The notes under the pieces were generated by a model, which was given only the letters and a program-made list of their open reading frames with translations, was not told the DNA's origin and made no database searches. Of a stretch of DNA of 55,852 nucleotides, positions 17,308-45,028 are shown piece after piece. The position numbers and the translations under genes are program-made. The DNA is from Oscillospiraceae bacterium (lineage in GTDB: Bacteria > Bacillota > Clostridia > Oscillospirales > Oscillospiraceae), in the NCBI GenBank assembly GCA_017412765.1, contig JAFPWN010000052.1:1-55852 (forward strand). Reading direction: 5' to 3'. Each line of letters starts with the position of its first letter. Within the stretch, counting starts at the first letter, position 1.

Positions 17308-17328
17308 TAGGCGAGAGGAGTGGACAAG

Positions 17329-18186
17329 ATGGAAGAAAGCGGACGGATCGAGCGGTTTGACAGGGCAGTGCTTCTGCTGCCGTACGCCATGCGGGAGCGG
17401 GCGCGGGAGCTTGGGAGGCAGGAGAGGGCGGAGTGCGAGGAGCTGAGACTCAGGATAGGCGAGTGCCTCTCGTTTACGTTTCCCGACGGCGAGCGCGACC
17501 GCGGCGGCGACAGGATAACGAGGCGCGACCTTGACTACGCCTTTGAGCTTTGCACCGGAGCGAGCGCCTACGCCTCGCGCGAGCGCATTTCGGAGGGCTT
17601 TGTCACCGCAAAGGGCGGCTATCGCGTGGGGCTTGCGGGACAGTACGGCGAGGGGGGACTGGTAAGGCTGACGGGGCTGAGCATCCGGGTTTCCCGTGAG
17701 ATACGCGGCTGCGCCGGGCGATTCCTGCGCGAAAAGCCGGTATCTACGCTCATAATCAGCCCTCCGGGCGGCGGGAAAACCACTCTCCTGCGCGACCTTA
17801 TCCGGCTCACGGGCGAAAATTTCCGCGTTTCCGTCTGCGACGAGCGCGGCGAGCTTGCCTGCCTCTGGGAGGGCGCGCCTACGATGGATCTCGGGCGCAG
17901 GACGGACGTGATAGACGGCGTTCCGAAGGCGCGGGCGGCAATGATGCTGATACGCAGCATGAATCCGCAGGTGATCGCGCTCGACGAGATAACCGCGCCG
18001 GAGGACGTTTCCGCTGTCAGCGCGGCGGCGCACTGCGGGGTCAGGGTCTATGCGACCGTCCACGCGGAGAGCCTCGGAGAGCTGGGCGAGAAGCCGCTCT
18101 ACCGCTCGCTTTTTTCTGAGCGCATCTTCGAGCGGGCGATAATCATAGGAAAAGGCAGAGAATACACCGAGGCGGCGATAGTTTGA
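17329..18186 (+). CDS. spoIIIAA: SpoIIIAA, ATPase of the SpoIIIA-SpoIIQ channel
   Basis: 285 aa. Cytoplasmic secretion-type ATPase on the mother-cell side of the engulfed forespore. Walker A SPPGGGKTTLLRDL is at about residue 145, VSVCDERGELAC follows, and the Walker B region is NPQVIALDEIT. The ATG at 17329 lies 8 nt after AGAGGAG; a GTG at 17320 is too close to that site. First gene of an eight-gene operon with overlapping or abutting joints, behind a candidate sigma-E promoter. Confidence 0.93.
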   Translation: MEESGRIERFDRAVLLLPYAMRERARELGRQERAECEELRLRIGECLSFTFPDGERDRGGDRITRRDLDYAFELCTGASAYASRERISEGFVTAKGGYRVGLAGQYGEGGLVRLTGLSIRVSREIRGCAGRFLREKPVSTLIISPPGGGKTTLLRDLIRLTGENFRVSVCDERGELACLWEGAPTMDLGRRTDVIDGVPKARAAMMLIRSMNPQVIALDEITAPEDVSAVSAAAHCGVRVYATVHAESLGELGEKPLYRSLFSERIFERAIIIGKGREYTEAAIV

Positions 18187-18614
18187 AGCTCGTCGGCGCG
18201 GTTGCGATAATGGCGGCGTCGCTCTGGCTCGGCGCCGCGGCGGTGCGGGAGATGGGCGATAGAGTCCGGCGCGCCGAGCGGGAGCTTTACCGGCTCACAA
18301 GGCTCAGAAGCCTCGTAATGAGCGCTCGACTGCCGATCGACGAAGCGCTCCGGGAGTGCGGCATCGAGCTTGAAAAAACCGAAGCGCCGTTTTCGGAGCG
18401 ATGGAGGGCGTGGGCGGATAGTCCGGCGCTGAAGGAGCTGGGAGAGTATCTCACGGGAGTAGACGAGGTGGCCAAGCGCGCAGCCTTTGAGCGCGCGGCA
18501 GACGAGGCGGAGTCGAAGCTAAAGGCGCTGAAAGATAAAAAGGAGCGCGATACGCGCCTTGCGCTTGCGCTCTCCGCGACTCTCGGCGCCTCGGCTGTTA
18601 TCTTACTTTTCTGA
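18183..18614 (+). CDS. spoIIIAB: SpoIIIAB
   Basis: 143 aa. Small mother-cell membrane protein of the SpoIIIA complex, resembling GspF-type assembly proteins. An N-terminal membrane helix (about 3-20), a long charged helical middle (RRAERELYRLTRLRSLVMSA) and a C-terminal membrane helix (about 125-143) match the family. It starts at a TTG that overlaps the spoIIIAA stop. Identity rests on both features and operon order. Confidence 0.88.
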   Translation: MKLVGAVAIMAASLWLGAAAVREMGDRVRRAERELYRLTRLRSLVMSARLPIDEALRECGIELEKTEAPFSERWRAWADSPALKELGEYLTGVDEVAKRAAFERAADEAESKLKALKDKKERDTRLALALSATLGASAVILLF

Positions 18615-18630
18615 ACGAAAGAGGCATTAC

Positions 18631-18825
18631 ATGGAGGTTGACCTCATTTTCAAAATAGCCGCCGTCGGCATACTCGTGGCGGTGCTGAATATTCTGCTGA
18701 GCCGCTCGGGACGCGACGAGCAGGCGCTTATGACGACGATAGCGGGGCTTATCGTAGTGCTGATGGTTATAGTGCGTGAGATATCGGGGCTTTTCGACCT
18801 TATAAAAAGCCTCTTCGGACTATAA
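18631..18825 (+). CDS. spoIIIAC: SpoIIIAC
   Basis: 64 aa, normal for the family. Two membrane helices separated by a short loop: MEVDLIFKIAAVGILVAVLN and then TTIAGLIVVLMVIVREISG. The earlier in-frame starts lie inside spoIIIAB; ATG 18631 has GAAAGAGG upstream. It shares one base with spoIIIAD (TAATG). Confidence 0.9.
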   Translation: MEVDLIFKIAAVGILVAVLNILLSRSGRDEQALMTTIAGLIVVLMVIVREISGLFDLIKSLFGL

Positions 18826-19208
18826 TGGCGGCGGTGAGAGCCATCGCCGTGAGCCTCGTGGCGGCGGCGCTGGCGGTTACGATACGGCGGGACAATCCGG
18901 TCTTTGCGCTTATGATCGCGGTGAGCGCGGCGCTTTTTCTGATGTGGACGGCGATCGAGCCGCTGAGGGAGCTGACGGACGAGCTTTTTACACTTGCACA
19001 GGAGGCGAATCTGCAGGCGGGCGTTATCACGTCGGTGCTCAAATGCGTTGCGATAGGCATACTCGCGCGATTCGGTTCCGATATTCTGCGCGACAGCGGC
19101 ATGAGTGCGGCGTCGTCGTCGGTGGAGGTGCTCGGCGTTGCGGCGGGGCTGTGGTCGGCGCTGCCGCTTCTGAGAATGTGTCTGGAAGCGATAAGGAGCG
19201 GGCTGTGA
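18825..19208 (+). CDS. spoIIIAD: SpoIIIAD
   Basis: 127 aa, four hydrophobic helices, homologous in its first part to SpoIIIAC (PVFALMIAVSAALFLMW). Membrane component of the forespore feeding channel. Starts by TAATG overlap with spoIIIAC and ends in a GTGA overlap with spoIIIAE, so translation is coupled. Confidence 0.9.
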   Translation: MAAVRAIAVSLVAAALAVTIRRDNPVFALMIAVSAALFLMWTAIEPLRELTDELFTLAQEANLQAGVITSVLKCVAIGILARFGSDILRDSGMSAASSSVEVLGVAAGLWSALPLLRMCLEAIRSGL

Positions 19209-20245
19209 AGAAAATAATAGTGCTTTTTCTGCTGTGCTTTTTTCTTACGCCGCAGGCATACGCCGAGGAGGTACCGGACTCGGCAAGACCGATTTTGGGA
19301 GATATCGAAAGCGGCGACGTTCTCGACCCCGCAGCCGCGCTGAGATCTATGGGGCAGAGAATGCTCGACGGGCTGACGGAGCCTCTCGCGCAGGCGATGA
19401 AAAACGCCTCGGCTGTGCTTATCTGCGCCGTTCTGGCCTCGCTCGGCGACGTTCTGAGCCTCGGAAAGACCGGCTCCGGCGCGGCAAGGCTCGCGGGAGT
19501 TCTTGGGATCACGGCCGCGGCGGGCTCGGGAATAGGCGGGATAATAGGTTCGCTCGCCGCGCTTATTTCGGACATTCGCGCCTACTCCGCGGCGCTTTTG
19601 CCGACAGTCGCCTCGGCCGCAGCGGCGTCGGGAGCGCCGGCTTCGGCCTCGGCAAACCTTGCCATGGCTACGCTCTGCATGAATGCCGTTCTGGCTGCGG
19701 CGGAAAAGTTCATTATACCGCTCGTTACCGTAATGGTCGCCGTTGCGACTGCATCAGCGGCGTTTGACGGAGCGCTCAGGGGCGTTTTCGATATGCTCTC
19801 GCGCATAGCGCGCTGGCTGGTCATCGGACTTTCAACCGCCTTTACGGCGGCTATCGGAGTTACGAAGGTCATCTCCGCGGCGGCAGACGAGGCTGCGGTC
19901 AAGGCGGCGCGCGCGGCGCTCACTACGCTCGTTCCAGTCGTCGGGCGCACCATCTCGGACGCGTCCGAGGCGGTCGCAGGCAGCTTTGCGATAGTAAAAA
20001 ACACTTCGGGAGTTTTCGGGATACTCGTAGTCATCGCGCTCGCATATACGCCGATCGTCTCGGCGGCGGCAAACTACCTCGGCTACAAAATTGCCTCGTC
20101 GCTCGCGCAGATAGTCGCGGGCCAGGAGATAACCCGGCTTATTTCGGATATCGGTACGGCGATCGGCTACGCGGCGGCGACGGCGGCGGTAAGCGCGCTT
20201 GCGCTTTTTATAGGGGTCGCGGGCTTTATAGGGACAGTGACGTGA
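19205..20245 (+). CDS. spoIIIAE: SpoIIIAE
   Basis: 346 aa. Polytopic membrane protein, the largest channel subunit. A cleavable signal peptide (about residues 1-19, ending AYAEE) is followed by about six to seven hydrophobic helices rich in Ala and Gly, including GILVVIALAYTPIVSAAANY and a C-terminal LALFIGVAGFIG. I use the GTG at 19205 overlapping the spoIIIAD stop; the open frame upstream of it is antisense to nothing but lacks a signal-peptide start. It overlaps spoIIIAF. Confidence 0.92.
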   Translation: MKKIIVLFLLCFFLTPQAYAEEVPDSARPILGDIESGDVLDPAAALRSMGQRMLDGLTEPLAQAMKNASAVLICAVLASLGDVLSLGKTGSGAARLAGVLGITAAAGSGIGGIIGSLAALISDIRAYSAALLPTVASAAAASGAPASASANLAMATLCMNAVLAAAEKFIIPLVTVMVAVATASAAFDGALRGVFDMLSRIARWLVIGLSTAFTAAIGVTKVISAAADEAAVKAARAALTTLVPVVGRTISDASEAVAGSFAIVKNTSGVFGILVVIALAYTPIVSAAANYLGYKIASSLAQIVAGQEITRLISDIGTAIGYAAATAAVSALALFIGVAGFIGTVT

Positions 20246-20694
20246 TGCGGGAATGGATACTGCGGCTTATTGGAACTGCGATGATAGCATCTGCGGCGGT
20301 GCGCCTTACCCCGGATGGCGTTTACAGAAAGGTCACGCGCCTTGTCTGCTCTCTTGCGCTCATATCGGCGCTCCTTTCGATCAGAGAGGCGATACCGCTT
20401 TTCAAAGAGACGCTTCCGGATCCCGTGATCCCGGCGATCAGCATTGAGGAGGCGCGGAACGAAACAAGATTTATCATAGAAAAGCGGCTCGATGAATATA
20501 TTGTGGAGAGAGCGAGAGCCCTCGGGCTTGACCTCACTGTCAGCGTTACCGCCCGGTGGTCGGACGAGGGATACTGGTATCCCTATTCAGTCCGGCTTGA
20601 GGGAGAGGCAGAGGGCGCGGACAGACTGAGAATAGGCGAGTATATCGCGGGGGAGCTGATGATACCGAAGGAGCGGCAGGAATGGATAAACTGA
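20245..20694 (+). CDS. spoIIIAF: SpoIIIAF
   Basis: 149 aa. Two N-terminal membrane helices (about residues 5-24 and 32-52) and a C-terminal soluble domain facing the intermembrane space, as in the ring-forming SpoIIIAF. A conserved-type EEARNETRFIIEKRLDEYI segment starts the domain. The start is ATG 20245 or GTG 20242, both overlapping the spoIIIAE stop. It overlaps spoIIIAG by 13 bp. Confidence 0.88.
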   Translation: MREWILRLIGTAMIASAAVRLTPDGVYRKVTRLVCSLALISALLSIREAIPLFKETLPDPVIPAISIEEARNETRFIIEKRLDEYIVERARALGLDLTVSVTARWSDEGYWYPYSVRLEGEAEGADRLRIGEYIAGELMIPKERQEWIN

Positions 20695-24962: not shown

Positions 24963-25205
24963 ATGAAAAAAACTGAAAAACTCAGCTTTGAGGACTCAAT
25001 GCAGCGCATTGAGGAAATTGTCCGCTCGCTTGAAAAGGGCGACAAAAGTCTCGACGAGGCGCTTGGACTGTTTGAGGAGGGAACCGCGCTTATAAAGGGC
25101 GCCTCCGCAATGCTCGAGGAGGCGGAGCAGAGGGTCGTAAAGCTCCAGAAGGGGCCGGACGGCGAGCCGATAGAATCGAAATTCATCGAGGAGGAGGAGA
25201 AATGA
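24963..25205 (+). CDS. xseB: Exodeoxyribonuclease VII small subunit
   Basis: 80 aa, normal length. SFEDSMQRIEEIVRSLEKGD followed by SLDEALGLFEEGTALI is the family signature. The C-terminal tail is acidic. It starts 3 bp after xseA and overlaps ispA by 4 bp (ATGA). Confidence 0.96.
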   Translation: MKKTEKLSFEDSMQRIEEIVRSLEKGDKSLDEALGLFEEGTALIKGASAMLEEAEQRVVKLQKGPDGEPIESKFIEEEEK

Positions 25206-26062
25206 GCTTCAGAGAAGAATACGCCGAGATGCGCAGACTGATCGAAGGAAAGCTCGGCACTTACTTTAACGGCGGCGGCATTGAGGAGGCGATGAAATAC
25301 TCCCTGATGTCCGGCGGCACGCGACTGCGCCCGATACTCACTCTGAAATTCTGCGAGGCTGCGGGCGGCGCGCCTGACGAGGCGATAGACTTTGCCTGCG
25401 CCGTCGAGATGCTCCACGTCTATTCCCGCATACACGACGATCTGCCGATAATGGACAATGACGAGGTGAGAAACGGAATACCGACAAACCACCTTAAATT
25501 CGGCGCCGATACCGCGCTTATAGCCGGAGACGCATTGCAGGCGGCGGCTTTCCGCACCATCCTCACCGCGGGCGAGATGTTCCCGGAGACCGGCAAGGGC
25601 GCGGCTATCGCCGCGGCGAGAACTCTCGCGCAGGCGGCGGGAGAGAGAGAGCTGTGCAAGGGACAGTATCTCGACACCCGTCCCAAGACCACGACTACGA
25701 ACCGCGAGCTTAAGGACATAGGCGACAAAAAGACCTGCGCGATCCTGAGAGCCGCGGGTGAGATCGGTGTCTACGCCTCGCAGGGCAGGAGAGAGGTCGA
25801 TCCCTTCTACTTTGAGGTCGCGCGAGACTACGCGACGAACCTCGGGCACGCCTATTCCATCCGCGACGATATAATCGACGCAGGGAAGAGCGCGCCGAAG
25901 GAGGGCAAGATAACGATCGTTGACCTCGTCGGCGTCGATCAGGCGAAAAAGCTTGTCGGAGAGTACACCGAGCGCGCGATCTCCGCGCTTTTCTCGGCGC
26001 ACTGGATCGGACCGTACGCCTTTCTTCTCAAGCTTGCGGACACGATGGGCGAGAGAGAATAA
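25202..26062 (+). CDS. ispA: Polyprenyl (farnesyl/geranyl) diphosphate synthase
   Basis: 286 aa. Condenses IPP with allylic diphosphates to C15 or similar. The first Asp-rich motif is HDDLPIMDND (about residue 80), the second is RDDIIDAGK (about 222). LMSGGTRLRP binds diphosphate near residue 37, and CKGQYLD replaces the common GQALD. The residues before the first motif (HVYSRIHDD) fit a short-chain enzyme, consistent with IspA. Last protein gene before the OLE RNA; a terminator hairpin follows. Confidence 0.94.
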   Translation: MSFREEYAEMRRLIEGKLGTYFNGGGIEEAMKYSLMSGGTRLRPILTLKFCEAAGGAPDEAIDFACAVEMLHVYSRIHDDLPIMDNDEVRNGIPTNHLKFGADTALIAGDALQAAAFRTILTAGEMFPETGKGAAIAAARTLAQAAGERELCKGQYLDTRPKTTTTNRELKDIGDKKTCAILRAAGEIGVYASQGRREVDPFYFEVARDYATNLGHAYSIRDDIIDAGKSAPKEGKITIVDLVGVDQAKKLVGEYTERAISALFSAHWIGPYAFLLKLADTMGERE

Positions 26063-26074
26063 AATGCCCGTTTT

Positions 26075-26107
26075 CGCGGAAGAGTCTTTTTGATTCTTCC
26101 GCGTTTA
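26075..26107 (+). terminator. Terminator after ispA
   Basis: CGCGGAAGA (26075-26083) pairs with TCTTCCGCG (26095-26103), followed by TTTATT. It separates the nusB-ispA transcript from the OLE promoter. Confidence 0.75.
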
Positions 26108-26120
26108 TTCGTTTTTGGGC

Positions 26121-26149
26121 TTGAAAAGTGAATAAATATTATGTATAAT
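26121..26149 (+). promoter_or_regulatory. Promoter of the OLE RNA
   Basis: TTGAAA (26121-26126), exact 17-bp spacer, TATAAT (26144-26149). Transcription would start near 26156, at the first base of the closing helix of the RNA. Confidence 0.82.
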
Positions 26150-26156
26150 TAAAAAT

Positions 26157-26816
26157 TACGGCGGTGCAGTATCCTAGTCGGAGCCCTGTCTCCCAGGAAG
26201 GGCCTAAAAATCCTTTGAAGGGCACATCTATGAAGCCTCTTGTGTTTGCTTGGAATGCCAGTTCCGGGTGGATGCTGGAGGGAGGTCTATGCGAACTTTG
26301 ATCGTCTTAGCCTGCATCGGACGGGCGTCCCCGAATGGCATCGGGAATTCGACCCGGCCGGTGTGGAGACCCGACTCTGTGGTGAGGCGTACTCCCATTT
26401 GCGGTATGCGATCTCATTACGGACCGGGGTTGAACCTGTAGTGCGGTGCGTTATTACGGAATTTTTTCTCAGTGCTGTGTGCAGAGTAGCCTGCCTTGAG
26501 TGGAAAAGAGCGGATTGGAGAGCTTAAGCGGCAAGTGGTCCCCGGCCGGGATCGCAGGGTCGATATCTCCATGAAATATTTTCTGCAAAAGAGGCTAAAG
26601 AGACGGTTCGCTCCGTTATGGAAAACATCTAGGCTGTCGATATTCGGTATTGCGGAGGATTGCAGTACGGACTCAGTGGCAATCGGGTAACGCGCAGGGC
26701 GACGGCGCGTGCGGCGCCCCAAGGGGAAACCACCTTCACCGGCAACGGGAGGCGGCGCCGCGGGAAATCCGACCCGACCTATGCCGTAAGGTTTACTCCG
26801 CGATATGCCGCCGTAC
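26157..26816 (+). ncRNA. OLE RNA (ornate, large, extremophilic RNA), about 660 nt
   Basis: A 777-bp protein-free gap between ispA and dxs holds a long, GC-balanced, structured sequence. Its ends pair: TACGGCGG (26157-26164) with CCGCCGTA (26808-26815), extended inward by GTATC with GATAT. Other visible helices include GCGGCGCC (26711-26718) with GGCGCCGC (26754-26761), and GCCCT with AGGGC near 26182-26205. Size (about 610 nt is typical), position between ispA and dxs, and the following small membrane protein are the published hallmarks of OLE RNA, which binds OapA at the membrane. I recognised it from context and architecture, not from a covariance search. Short open frames inside it lack good ribosome sites and are not coding. 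Confidence 0.87.
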
Positions 26817-26839
26817 AAATTATTAAAGGGTAACTTAAA

Positions 26840-27379
26840 ATGCGGAAAACAAACTGGCGGTGGGTGATATCCATTACCCTGATCGCCATCGTAACAAGCA
26901 TGGTATTCTCGCTCATTTCGAGCGAGATACTTGACGGCGCCGGATATTTTGTCGCCGTTTTGCTGCTGCTCACGTTCATCGCGATCGGCATCATATTCGA
27001 TATGCTCGGCGTGGCGGTGACTGCCGCGCGCGAGGCGCCGTTTCACTCCATGGCGAGCCATAAGGAGTACGGCGCGGCGGAGGCAATAAGGCTCGTGCGC
27101 GCTTCAGAGCGAGTCAGCTCGATCTGCAACGACGTTGTCGGAGACATTTCCGGCATAGTCTCCGGCGCGACCGCGGCGGTGCTCGCCGCGAATTTTACGC
27201 GCGATTTTTCACTGTCAGCCGTAATAACCCAGCTCGTTGTGACCGGCCTCGTCGCCGGACTGACGATCGGCGGCAAGGCGCTCGGAAAGAGCCTCGCCAT
27301 AAACCGCAACACGGAGATAGTTCTCCTTGCGGGAAAGGTCTCCGCCTTTTTTTCCGGCGGGGGCAAAAAGAAAAAATAA
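26840..27379 (+). CDS. oapA: OapA-like OLE RNA-associated membrane protein
   Basis: 179 aa. About four membrane helices: residues 8-30 (WVISITLIAIVTSMVFSLIS), 36-60 (VAVLLLLTFIAIGIIF), about 120-138 and 145-168 (QLVVTGLVAGLTIGGKALG). The stretch FDMLGVAVTAAREAPFHSMA after helix 2 resembles the DUF21/CNNM-type transmembrane domain. OapA was described as the protein that binds OLE RNA and holds it at the membrane, in work linking the complex to Mg and stress responses. It begins 24 bp after the RNA, with AAAGGG before the ATG, and ends in a Lys-rich tail. The assignment depends strongly on context. Confidence 0.83.
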   Translation: MRKTNWRWVISITLIAIVTSMVFSLISSEILDGAGYFVAVLLLLTFIAIGIIFDMLGVAVTAAREAPFHSMASHKEYGAAEAIRLVRASERVSSICNDVVGDISGIVSGATAAVLAANFTRDFSLSAVITQLVVTGLVAGLTIGGKALGKSLAINRNTEIVLLAGKVSAFFSGGGKKKK

Positions 27380-27391
27380 GGATGTATTCAT

Positions 27392-29290
27392 TTGGCAATA
27401 TTGGATTCCATACAAAGCCCGAGAGACGTAAAGTATCTGACCGACGCTGAGCTCAGGACGCTCGTTGACGAGGTTCGTGAGTTCACGGTAGACGCCGTGA
27501 GCAGAACGGGCGGCCATCTCTCGAGCTCGCTCGGCGTCGCGGAGATAACCGTGGCGATACACAGAGTTTTTGACACGAGCCGCGACAGGCTCGTTTTCGA
27601 CGTCGGTCACCAGAGCTATATCCACAAGGCGCTCACGGGCAGACGCGACAAATTCGACACCCTCCGCTCGTTCGGCGGTATCGCGGGCTTTCCGAAGCCC
27701 TCGGAATCTGAGCACGACGCATTTATCGGCGGCCACGCTTCCGCGGCGGTCAGCGAGGCGCTCGGCATGGCGCGGGCGCGCACGATGGCGGGGGAGGATT
27801 ACTCTGTAATAGCGCTTCTCGGCGACGGGGCGCTGACGGGCGGCATGGCGTATGAGGCGCTGTGCGACGCCGGAGCGAGCCGCGAGCCGCTGATCGTTAT
27901 TCTCAACGACAACGGCATGAGCATAGCAAAAAACGTCGGCGGAATGGCAAAGTATCTGACCCGCCTGCGCCTGAGGCGCGGATACCGCACCTTCAAGACC
28001 ATCTACCGCAAGGCGACAAGCTCGCTTCCCGGCGGCAAGTGGCTTTACAGACTGACACATAAGATCAAGGAGAACATTAAGCGCGGAGTTTTCAACTGCG
28101 GTATGTTCGAGGACTGGGGCTTTTCATATCTCGGACCGGTGGACGGTCACGATCTCGGAGAGATGATCCGAGCACTCGAGGTCGCAAGAGATCTTAAATG
28201 CCCGGTAATTATCCACGCTATAACAAAAAAAGGAAAGGGCTACGCGCCGGCGGAGAACGATCCGGAGGCATTTCATGGCGTCGGCGCCTTCGACAGAGAA
28301 ACGGGCGCGACTCCGGCGCCGGGCGAGTCCTTTGCGGCGCAGTTCGGAGAATATCTGACGGAGCTTGCGGAGGAGGATAAGCAGATCTGCGCGATAACGG
28401 CGGCCATGGCGCCCGGCACGGGTCTTTCCGGCTTCGGCAGGACGTATCCCGGGCGGTTTTTTGACGTCGGCATCGCAGAGGAGCACGCCGCGGGCATGGC
28501 GGCTGGACTTGCCGCAGGCGGCATGAAGCCGGTGCTCGCAGTTTATTCGACCTTTCTCCAGCGCTCATACGACCAGATTATCCACGATATAGGCATTCTC
28601 TCCGAGCACGTCGTGCTCGCAGTTGACAAAGCCGGACTTGTCGGAGAGGACGGCGAAACGCACCACGGCGTTTTTGACGTAAGCTACCTCAGAAGCGTTC
28701 CGAAGATGACAGTTCTCTGTCCCGCGTCCTACGCGGAGCTGAGAGATATGCTCGCCTATGCCTTATACGACGTTCAGGGGCCGGTTGCGGTGCGCTACCC
28801 AAAGGGCGGCGAGGGCGAGTATAAGGAGCGCGGGGTCGATAGATCCAAGCTTCTCCGCACGGGCGAGGATTTCACGATAATAACCTACGGAATAAATATA
28901 AACGACGCGGTAAAGGCCGCGGATATTCTCGCGGAGAAGGGCGTCGGCTGCGACGTACTGAAGCTCGGCAGCATTAAGCCGCTCGACGAGCAGGCGATAA
29001 TCGCCTCTGTCGCCAAAACCGGCAGGCTTTACGTTTTAGAGGAGTGCGTTTCCGGCGGCTGCGTAGGCGAGGAGATAGCCTCGATGCTCGTAAGAGCGGG
29101 GCAGAGCCCGAGAAGGCTCGTTCTGCGCAATCTCGGCGACAGCTTTGTGCCGCACGGCGCCGTTACGCGCCTTCGTGAGGAATACGGCCTTGACAGCTCG
29201 AGCGTAGCGCGCGAGATAGAGGAAAACCTTCCGGAAAGAATCAGGGAACGAAAGAAAAAAGAGGTTGGAAATGCCAAAGAAACGACTTGA
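27392..29290 (+). CDS. dxs: 1-deoxy-D-xylulose-5-phosphate synthase
   Basis: 632 aa, full length. Thiamine-diphosphate enzyme joining pyruvate and glyceraldehyde 3-phosphate, first step of the MEP isoprenoid pathway. GGHLSSSLGVAEITVAIH near residue 40, the diphosphate/Mg motif LGDGALTGGMAYEAL ending in LNDNGMSI (about 148-180), and DVGIAEEHAAGMAAGLA near 355. DVGHQSYIHKALTGRRD is a slight variant of the common HQAYPHK. It starts at TTG with AAGGATG upstream. tlyA begins inside its last codons. Confidence 0.96.
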   Translation: MAILDSIQSPRDVKYLTDAELRTLVDEVREFTVDAVSRTGGHLSSSLGVAEITVAIHRVFDTSRDRLVFDVGHQSYIHKALTGRRDKFDTLRSFGGIAGFPKPSESEHDAFIGGHASAAVSEALGMARARTMAGEDYSVIALLGDGALTGGMAYEALCDAGASREPLIVILNDNGMSIAKNVGGMAKYLTRLRLRRGYRTFKTIYRKATSSLPGGKWLYRLTHKIKENIKRGVFNCGMFEDWGFSYLGPVDGHDLGEMIRALEVARDLKCPVIIHAITKKGKGYAPAENDPEAFHGVGAFDRETGATPAPGESFAAQFGEYLTELAEEDKQICAITAAMAPGTGLSGFGRTYPGRFFDVGIAEEHAAGMAAGLAAGGMKPVLAVYSTFLQRSYDQIIHDIGILSEHVVLAVDKAGLVGEDGETHHGVFDVSYLRSVPKMTVLCPASYAELRDMLAYALYDVQGPVAVRYPKGGEGEYKERGVDRSKLLRTGEDFTIITYGININDAVKAADILAEKGVGCDVLKLGSIKPLDEQAIIASVAKTGRLYVLEECVSGGCVGEEIASMLVRAGQSPRRLVLRNLGDSFVPHGAVTRLREEYGLDSSSVAREIEENLPERIRERKKKEVGNAKETT

Positions 29291-30068: not shown

Positions 30069-30887
30069 TTGAGTAAAATACTGCTCTGCCCGAATCCGAA
30101 GCGCGACAGAGGCTGCCGCGTGACATATTCCGTCCGCGATATGCTCGTCGGCGCCGGAGGCGAGGTCGAGGTCTGCACGATAGACGATATGACCGCCGAC
30201 AGGCTCCGCTGGGCGGACTTCGCCATAACCTTCGGCGGCGACGGGACTATCCTGCACGCTGCCCGCAACGCCTGCGCCTACGGCGTGCCGGTGCTCGGCG
30301 TAAATCTCGGTCACAAGGGCTTTATCGCGGAGCTTGAGATGCGCGATACAGACCTGCTCAAAAGGCTCGTTCGCGGCCCCGTCCGCACGGAAAAGCGCAT
30401 GATGATAGACGTTGAGCTTATAAGAAAGGGCAGCGTCATATACACCGACTTTGCCCTGAACGACGTTGTCGTCGGGAGCATGGGAAGAACGCTTCCGATA
30501 AGCGCCTACGGCGACGAGAGGAAGATAACCTCATTTTCCGGCGACGGGATAATCGTTTCCACGCCGACGGGATCTACCGCCTATAATCTCTCCGCCGGAG
30601 GCCCGATACTCGAGCCGGACACCGAGAATATTATTCTGACTCCGATCTGCCCGCACACACTTTTTGCAAAGGGCTTCGTCCTGAGTCCGAACCGCACCGT
30701 CACCGTGGAGGTGGAGGACTTCGGCCGCAAGAGCGCCTTTGTTTCGACGGACGGCGCGAAGCCCGTACCGCTCGAGCCGCGCGACAGGATAGTGGTGACG
30801 CGCTCGGAGAAGGTGGCGGAGTTTATAAAGCTCACGGAGAGAAGCTTTTACGAGCGGGTGAGCGAAAAGCTGGGAGACAAGCTATGA
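30069..30887 (+). CDS. nadK: NAD kinase
   Basis: 272 aa. Phosphorylates NAD to NADP. The GGDGT motif (ITFGGDGTILHAAR, about residues 56-69), NLGHKGFIAEL, the DEVVV-like NDVVVGS and STPTGSTAYNLSAGGPI are all present. It starts at TTG, 9 nt after GGGAGG, and overlaps argR by 4 bp. Confidence 0.95.
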   Translation: MSKILLCPNPKRDRGCRVTYSVRDMLVGAGGEVEVCTIDDMTADRLRWADFAITFGGDGTILHAARNACAYGVPVLGVNLGHKGFIAELEMRDTDLLKRLVRGPVRTEKRMMIDVELIRKGSVIYTDFALNDVVVGSMGRTLPISAYGDERKITSFSGDGIIVSTPTGSTAYNLSAGGPILEPDTENIILTPICPHTLFAKGFVLSPNRTVTVEVEDFGRKSAFVSTDGAKPVPLEPRDRIVVTRSEKVAEFIKLTERSFYERVSEKLGDKL

Positions 30888-31330
30888 AAAACGACAGACA
30901 GAAGAAAATTCTTGATATAATCGCGGAAAAAGAGGTAGAAACTCAAAATCAGCTCATTGAAGAGCTCAATGCCGTCGGCGTTCACGCTACGCAAGCGACC
31001 GTATCGAGGGATATTAAGGAGCTGAGGCTCGTGAAGGAGCTGACGACCCACGGAACGTATCGCTATATGCCGCCCACCGAGGACGTGGAAAACCACTCGG
31101 AGCGCCTCAGAAAGATATTCCACGAGTGCGTCACAAGCTACACCTGCGCGCAGAACATCGTCGTTATCAAGACGCTCCCGGGACTTGCCTCGGCGGCGTG
31201 CAGCGCGATAGACAGAATGGACATCGAGAAGCTGGCAGGCTCGCTGGCGGGCGACGATACCGCGTTCATTGCGATGCTGGACGTCAGGAGCGCCGAGGAG
31301 CTGTGCGAGCTGATCGGAAAATATATGTAA
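30884..31330 (+). CDS. argR: Arginine repressor ArgR
   Basis: 148 aa. N-terminal winged helix (QKKILDIIAEKEVETQNQLIEEL, shown in part, then HATQATVSRDIKELRLVK) and a C-terminal arginine-binding, hexamerising domain with VIKTLPGLASAACSAID and GDDTAFI. It represses arginine synthesis and activates catabolism in Firmicutes. Conserved between nadK and recN in Clostridia. Confidence 0.95.
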   Translation: MKNDRQKKILDIIAEKEVETQNQLIEELNAVGVHATQATVSRDIKELRLVKELTTHGTYRYMPPTEDVENHSERLRKIFHECVTSYTCAQNIVVIKTLPGLASAACSAIDRMDIEKLAGSLAGDDTAFIAMLDVRSAEELCELIGKYM

Positions 31331-44842: not shown

Positions 44843-45028
44843 ATGAGCGAAGTAATCGTAAAGGAGAACGAGTCTCTTGACAGTGCTCTTAAGCGTTTTA
44901 AGAGAAACTGCGCAAAGGCTGGCGTCCTCGCTGACCTCCGCAAGAAGGAATTTTACCAGAGCCCCAGCGTAAAGCGCCGCAAGAAGTCCGAGGCTGCTCG
45001 CAAGAACAAGAACAAGCGTTATTATTAA
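44843..45028 (+). CDS. rpsU: 30S ribosomal protein S21
   Basis: 61 aa. Basic small-subunit protein; [20 protein letters not shown] and [20 protein letters not shown] are characteristic. Ribosome site GGAGGGAGGG. Single-gene unit with its own promoter and terminator. Confidence 0.96.

Follow-up and report, generated by a model that had tools for sequence, protein, structure and literature searches.

The interval between the ispA-type and dxs genes of an Oscillospiraceae bacterium raises two questions: which element occupies it, and whether this element works as its known counterparts do. The window, i.e. the whole stretch of DNA analysed, comprises 55,852 nucleotides; its features are listed in Table 1. 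Few bacterial RNAs of still unassigned biochemical function are as large as OLE, and the ispA-dxs gap, named as an OLE location in the initial annotation, is presumably a known place for it. The same annotation had assigned the gap to a structured RNA, OLE, followed by OapA. Both identifications proved correct, but the hairpin in J5/6 and the absence of OapC had been overlooked. The proposed search with the Rfam OLE covariance model (RF01071) was run and matched the RNA across its whole length (model positions 1-616, E 2.9e-113), far over the cut-off of 50 bits. It is the only RF01071 match in the 2.28-Mb draft genome. The assignment to OLE RNA with OapA is certain, and elements of this kind are already known.

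Table 1. Positions in the window of the OLE RNA, its structural elements, adjoining genes and genes of candidate partners.
Feature	Position	Strand	Remarks
ispA-type polyprenyl synthase gene, upstream neighbour	25202..26062	+	PF00348 6e-37
Terminator-like hairpin 3' of ispA	26075..26103	+	12-bp stem, weak T-run
OLE gene promoter	26121..26149	+	TTGAAA-17-TATAAT, 11/12 consensus matches
OLE RNA	26145..26827	+	RF01071 397.2 bits; Rfam span; transcript start predicted near 26156
Terminal helix (P1), 5' strand	26158..26165	+	pairs with 3' strand, 8 bp; inner pairs covary
L4 A-rich loop	26203..26213	+	CCTAAAAATCC in 140/184; published dimer contact
J4a/5, common to both k-turn models	26226..26235	+	C26228 and G26232-A26233 invariant, 184/184; bulge UAU, not GAU
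L5 loop UGCCAG	26256..26261	+	one base below common form; could pair with L6, 5 bp
Expanded J5/6	26279..26322	+	44 nt vs median 14; stem-loop 26283-26313 inserted
L6 loop	26334..26341	+	AAUGGCAU; identical in 152/184; published dimer contact
J6/7, second k-turn 1b strand	26361..26371	+	GAG 26366-26368 invariant, 184/184
L9 palindromic GGCC	26544..26547	+	GGCC in 152/184; published kissing loop
P12.2 and P13 loops	26697..26748	+	GGNRAC loop in 161 and 184 of 184; published OapB-binding region
Terminal helix (P1), 3' strand	26807..26814	+	inner pairs covary
oapA, 179 aa membrane protein	26840..27379	+	relatives follow OLE in 138/142 loci; CNNM-like predicted fold
dxs, downstream neighbour	27392..29290	+	TIGR00204 692 bits
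argR, candidate OLE partner	30884..31330	+	PF01316 and PF02863
rpsU (bS21), published OLE-binding protein	44843..45028	+	PF01165 8.5e-21; TIGR00030 5.5e-22

Conservation was assessed in a sample weighted to the window's relatives, in which 217 hits gave 207 near full-length and 184 distinct OLE RNAs. At the columns conserved to 95% in the 183 other RNAs, the window RNA retains 183 of 184; the single missing column lies in L5. The two ends of the RNA had been described as pairing over 8 bp. This stands for the inner six pairs of P1, whose retention ranges from 167/180 to 183/183 sequences, with compensatory types at five of the six, but less so for the outer two, kept about half the time (93/171 and 101/176). 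The rows for P4 and P6.1, being in wrong registers, were left out of these helix-pair counts. The lengths of P7 to P13 lie close to the median. The dimer-contact loops L4, L5/L6 and L9 are all present, L5 being one base shorter. Compared with the form CGCCCAG, found in 173/184 RNAs, one C is absent from L5; the UGCCA of the window and UGGCA in L6 are perfect complements. A short L5 loop of this type occurs in 6/184 RNAs.

The promoter with perfect spacing reported upstream of the RNA was recovered. Two promoter-like sites were found in the 1.7 kb scanned, compared with a mean of 0.9 in shuffled sequence. Upstream 70-mers of the relatives score at least 10/12 in 35/107 cases, versus 2.6% of their shuffles. 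A separate OLE promoter has been published for B. halodurans (PMC9723947). The terminator assigned to ispA retains its 12-bp stem, but the T-run TTTATTCGTT is poor, and three terminator-like sites versus 2.0 in shuffles make it a weak candidate. A separate promoter for OLE is plausible, with a strong promoter match and a weak ispA terminator. Support for the label 'spore-forming' comes solely from the spoIIIA-type genes at 17320-20694. This cluster is divergent: SpoIIIAA was matched with E 2.8e-60, AB and AF weakly, and none reaches the NCBIfam cut-offs.

The product of oapA had been described as a four-helix membrane protein, in agreement with its AlphaFold2 model (mean pLDDT 86.7), in which the long helices 6-33, 36-62, 89-123 and 127-155 are accompanied by three shorter ones. 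The protein is 41-61% identical to 22 aligned relatives and 93% to that of locus L063. In alignments of 23 and 28 sequences, the C, N, D, V, G and D of the motif CNDVVGD are invariant or nearly so, and D98 and D102 are invariant; the window protein holds all 24 invariant columns of the larger alignment. OapA of Halalkalibacterium halodurans is a four-helix membrane protein with the conserved aspartates D100 and D104 (PMC9723947). Their identical spacing suggests that D98 and D102 are the corresponding residues. Pfam assigned 13.8 bits to CNNM, under the cut-off of 28.4, while NCBIfam yielded nothing useful and no further domain was found in the 179 aa. The six best PDB matches of the model are membrane domains of CNNM/CorB/CorC proteins, with probabilities of 0.99-1.00, E values of 0.013 to 0.47, none below 0.001, and a query TM of up to 0.59. 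These matches fit the relationship between OapA and MpfA reported earlier (PMC11332333). OapA resembles the CNNM transporters in the long membrane helices and in these matches; it differs in its small size, the missing additional domain and the Pfam score.

Downstream sequence of 700 nt or more was available for 142 loci, some of them from the same genome; oapA lies 3' of OLE in 138 of these, within 400 nt in 136 and at 2.5 kb in two, and the available sequence of the other four has none. This arrangement, together with the promoter of its own, would suit an RNA acting mainly in cis, as a leader controlling oapA and dxs. Such a role is very unlikely. A gene of about 2.4 kb separates OLE from oapA in L217 (G417) and L135, and no oapA occurs in the roughly 9 kb flanking a well-scoring OLE (L290, G348) on each side. 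Moreover, OLE is abundant in published work, with a length of about 630 nt (PMC9723947), and the dimer-contact loops are conserved. Near two other well-scoring OLE RNAs, no oapA was found in 14.6 kb (L291, G372) and in a 3.2-kb contig (L292, G288). The intervening genes (L217:1594-3954; L135:1552-3891; one genome Oscillibacter sp.) encode proteins of about 780 aa that begin like lipoproteins, with LLGLAACG or LLGLSACG. In NCBIfam, one has no family and the other only a sub-threshold match resembling a signal peptide.

Several partner proteins were located. An OapB homologue is encoded at L059:7683-7949 on the minus strand, between genes read as map and infA. Its sole PDB match is 7k9b, the OapB crystal sequence (E 1.4e-6). 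Absence of OapB had been considered, as PF00467 showed just two KOW proteins, and was ruled out by synteny and PDB similarity. Pfam and NCBIfam have no family for this homologue, so surveys with these libraries could undercount OapB. Genes for bS21 and ArgR are present in the window; ArgR has been mentioned as an OLE partner from unpublished data (PMC12265935). OapC, also named YbxF, gave a negative result: the draft genome, 98% complete, contains no L7Ae-family match at E 0.001, and no ybxF-like frame precedes its rpsL. The only weaker L7Ae match (E 0.0023) is located in a nusA-rnpM-infB cluster, which we take to be the place of YlxQ. The sole L7Ae match of the congeners G036 and G151 likewise lies in this cluster. 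OapC is essential in H. halodurans. The missing OapC and the L5 deletion could point to a relic that has lost its function together with OapC. A relic is extremely improbable for an RNA with nearly all conserved columns, an intact promoter, an OapA complete in its invariant columns and OapB in the genome; in addition, OapC has been reported from just ~45% of OLE species (PMC11332333).

The draft genome shows no CNNM/MpfA protein at E 0.001. Since no Mg2+ exporter of this one family was found, it is probable that the OLE particle takes on some of the Mg2+ handling. CNNM over the cut-off occurs in 2/13 genomes with OLE versus 41/48 without among 61 genomes of the family (Fisher p 4.5e-6, uncorrected for kinship and incomplete genomes). 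This avoidance repeats, inside one family, the anticorrelation of OLE and CNNM/MpfA published for the phylum.

The suggestion that this copy widens the known range of OLE is not supported. Under strict filters that lose weak matches, OLE was found in at least 118/394 genomes of the order, and in 13/61 of the family Oscillospiraceae. A GTDB survey counted 2,822 OLE RNAs in Bacillota, anaerobic and gut members of the phylum being among the known carriers (PMC11332333). With these numbers, finding an OLE RNA in a gut anaerobe is unremarkable. Among named records, the nearest is an 'Oscillospiraceae bacterium' from roe-deer rumen, with a 93% identical OapA and 658/680 identical alignment columns in OLE. 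In five OLE-less relatives (L242, L243, L246, L253 and L254), a decayed OLE in the ispA-dxs gap of about 600 nt was ruled out, as a protein-coding gene is located there. The gene encodes a membrane-like protein of about 150 aa with a GGMPSSHS motif, presumably DUF212-like. The ispA and dxs genes lie almost side by side in several further relatives without OLE.

The window RNA departs from the common form in J5/6, a segment which RF01071 treats as an unmodelled insertion. Of the 184 distinct RNAs, 118 have a J5/6, as cut in this analysis, of 12-16 nt, while the other 66 have one of 27-76 nt. The long forms belong to the window's lineage (55), family f8 (three) and family f10 (eight). The basal stem of the window's insert, AGGU/GCCU, joins 26283-26286 with 26310-26313. 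At least four consecutive basal pairs are formed in 55/55 inserts of the lineage, with a mean of 6.87, compared with 4.58 after shuffling of the partners (largest of 200 shuffles, 5.04). Covariation was examined in 49 inserts (47 distinct), counting sequences and not independent events. The stem contains 84 double-change cells versus 30.4 in shuffles, a value reached by 0/500, and slid registers yield at most 27. Two of five covariation measures are less clear: seven of eight pairs are changed on both sides, which 75/500 shuffles reach, and the further pair types are reached by 8/500. The A...U closing pair and the following GC are nearly fixed, while the loop sequence is free. The window's own insert keeps four basal pairs and folds no better than shuffles (z -0.06), so that the evidence for a stem there comes from its relatives. 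The insert is also present in Sporobacter termitidis, a relative available in culture. No such hairpin is described in the passages of running text examined from PMC9723947, PMC11332333, PMC12054373, PMC12265935, PMC12286853 and PMC12191101. The J5/6 hairpin is likely a new variant of OLE.

Its position bears on two published k-turn models. K-turn 1a is formed by J4a/5 with J5/6 (PMC9723947), and k-turn 1b by J4a/5 with J6/7 (PMC12286853; named in PMC12054373). Both occupy the same spot and are mutually exclusive (PMC9723947, PMC12286853, PMC12054373). Probing of the H. halodurans RNA fits 1a for bS21, while both are possible for OapC (PMC12054373). The usual J5/6 strand, UUAAG, occurs in 0/66 insert RNAs versus 72/118 others; even the common form does not always have it, since 46/118 insert-free RNAs also lack it. 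The 3-nt bulge is GAU in 115/118 RNAs without and in 14/66 with the insert. The changed bulge and the insert are thus associated (52/66 vs 3/118, p 6e-29 by counts). A tree built without the insert columns requires five insert changes, gains and losses being indistinguishable, and eight bulge changes, with three supported independent pairs; with so few independent events, the association is not significant after kinship.

Neutral expansion of a surface linker, irrelevant to k-turns or partners, is a real possibility, somewhat short of even odds. The wide length range and free loop sequence of the insert fit it, and the lengths of P7 to P9 vary across the sampled RNAs too. The covarying basal pairs, the nearly fixed closing pair and GC, and the co-occurrence of insert and changed bulge, in few evolutionary events, argue against it. 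The occurrence of OapC was compared in 37 genomes, of which one (G399), with an OLE cut at a contig end, was dropped. An L7Ae-family gene adjoining rpsL was taken as YbxF/OapC, the neighbours being recognised via short sequence patterns, and weak, unclassified L7Ae matches in G096, G083 and G220 were scored absent. Such a gene was found in 8/24 genomes with the insert and 8/12 without (p 0.08). The insert does not track OapC significantly, as neutral expansion would have it. The idea that the insert marks the loss of OapC was ruled out on the same figures, eight insert genomes having an OapC-type gene.

K-turn 1a might still form in insert RNAs if the base of the hairpin melted and its 5' strand (GGAAG or similar) took over. 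Inserts of the GGGGAAGC type do have GAAG adjoining P5. This arrangement is unlikely, however: the register would shift, the covarying stem would be opened, the UUAAG strand is missing from every insert RNA, and GGGAGGUC of the window has no AAG. The simplest reading is that 1b would be the conserved OapC site, at least in insert species, because these RNAs lack UUAAG, the GAG of J6/7 is invariant and eight insert genomes keep an L7Ae gene. It is proposed tentatively, and with more doubt than confidence, that OLE RNAs with the stem-loop make up another structural class, distributed across three families within a single order. K-turn 1a would be impossible in this class, and the hairpin may serve as a novel docking point on the side of the particle that faces OapC and bS21. 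The eight insert genomes with an OapC-type gene would then represent a natural experiment separating both models. With a lineage devoid of the usual J5/6 strand, some members of which have OapC, the k-turn models are testable using natural RNAs. Rumen and gut species, together with the cultured S. termitidis, allow OLE to be studied without the H. halodurans partner set.

Taken together, the region is read, with a probability of roughly 0.8, as a working ole-oapA unit with the proposed roles of the OLE particle and with k-turn 1b in this lineage. A full-length OLE with its own promoter, conserved dimer loops and protein sites is followed by oapA, and OapB and bS21 are encoded in the genome. 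By analogy with work on H. halodurans and clostridial OLE cryo-EM, the RNA would dimerise, and OapA would bring it to the membrane. The particle would then support cells challenged by Mg2+, cold or alcohol, or growing on poor carbon sources. The J5/6 linker would have turned into a stem-loop in this lineage, leaving J4a/5 and J6/7 (1b) as the probable k-turn. OapC probably uses 1b in relatives that keep this protein; here, no OapC was found to occupy the k-turn.

Compared with the OLE RNAs of H. halodurans, C. acetobutylicum and C. botulinum (RF01071), the window copy shares the whole model, the conserved loops, the adjoining oapA, a promoter of its own and, presumably, the place between ispA and dxs. 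It differs in the J5/6 stem-loop insert, the L5 shortened by one base and the k-turn bulge, which reads UAU and not GAU. OLE variants 1 and 2 likewise represent lineage-specific structural changes in gut bacteria (Fernando and Breaker 2024, PMC11332333). In these variants, P7, P8, P9 or the end of P13 is shortened or missing, whereas the window RNA adds a helix in J5/6 and has P7-P9 of ordinary length.
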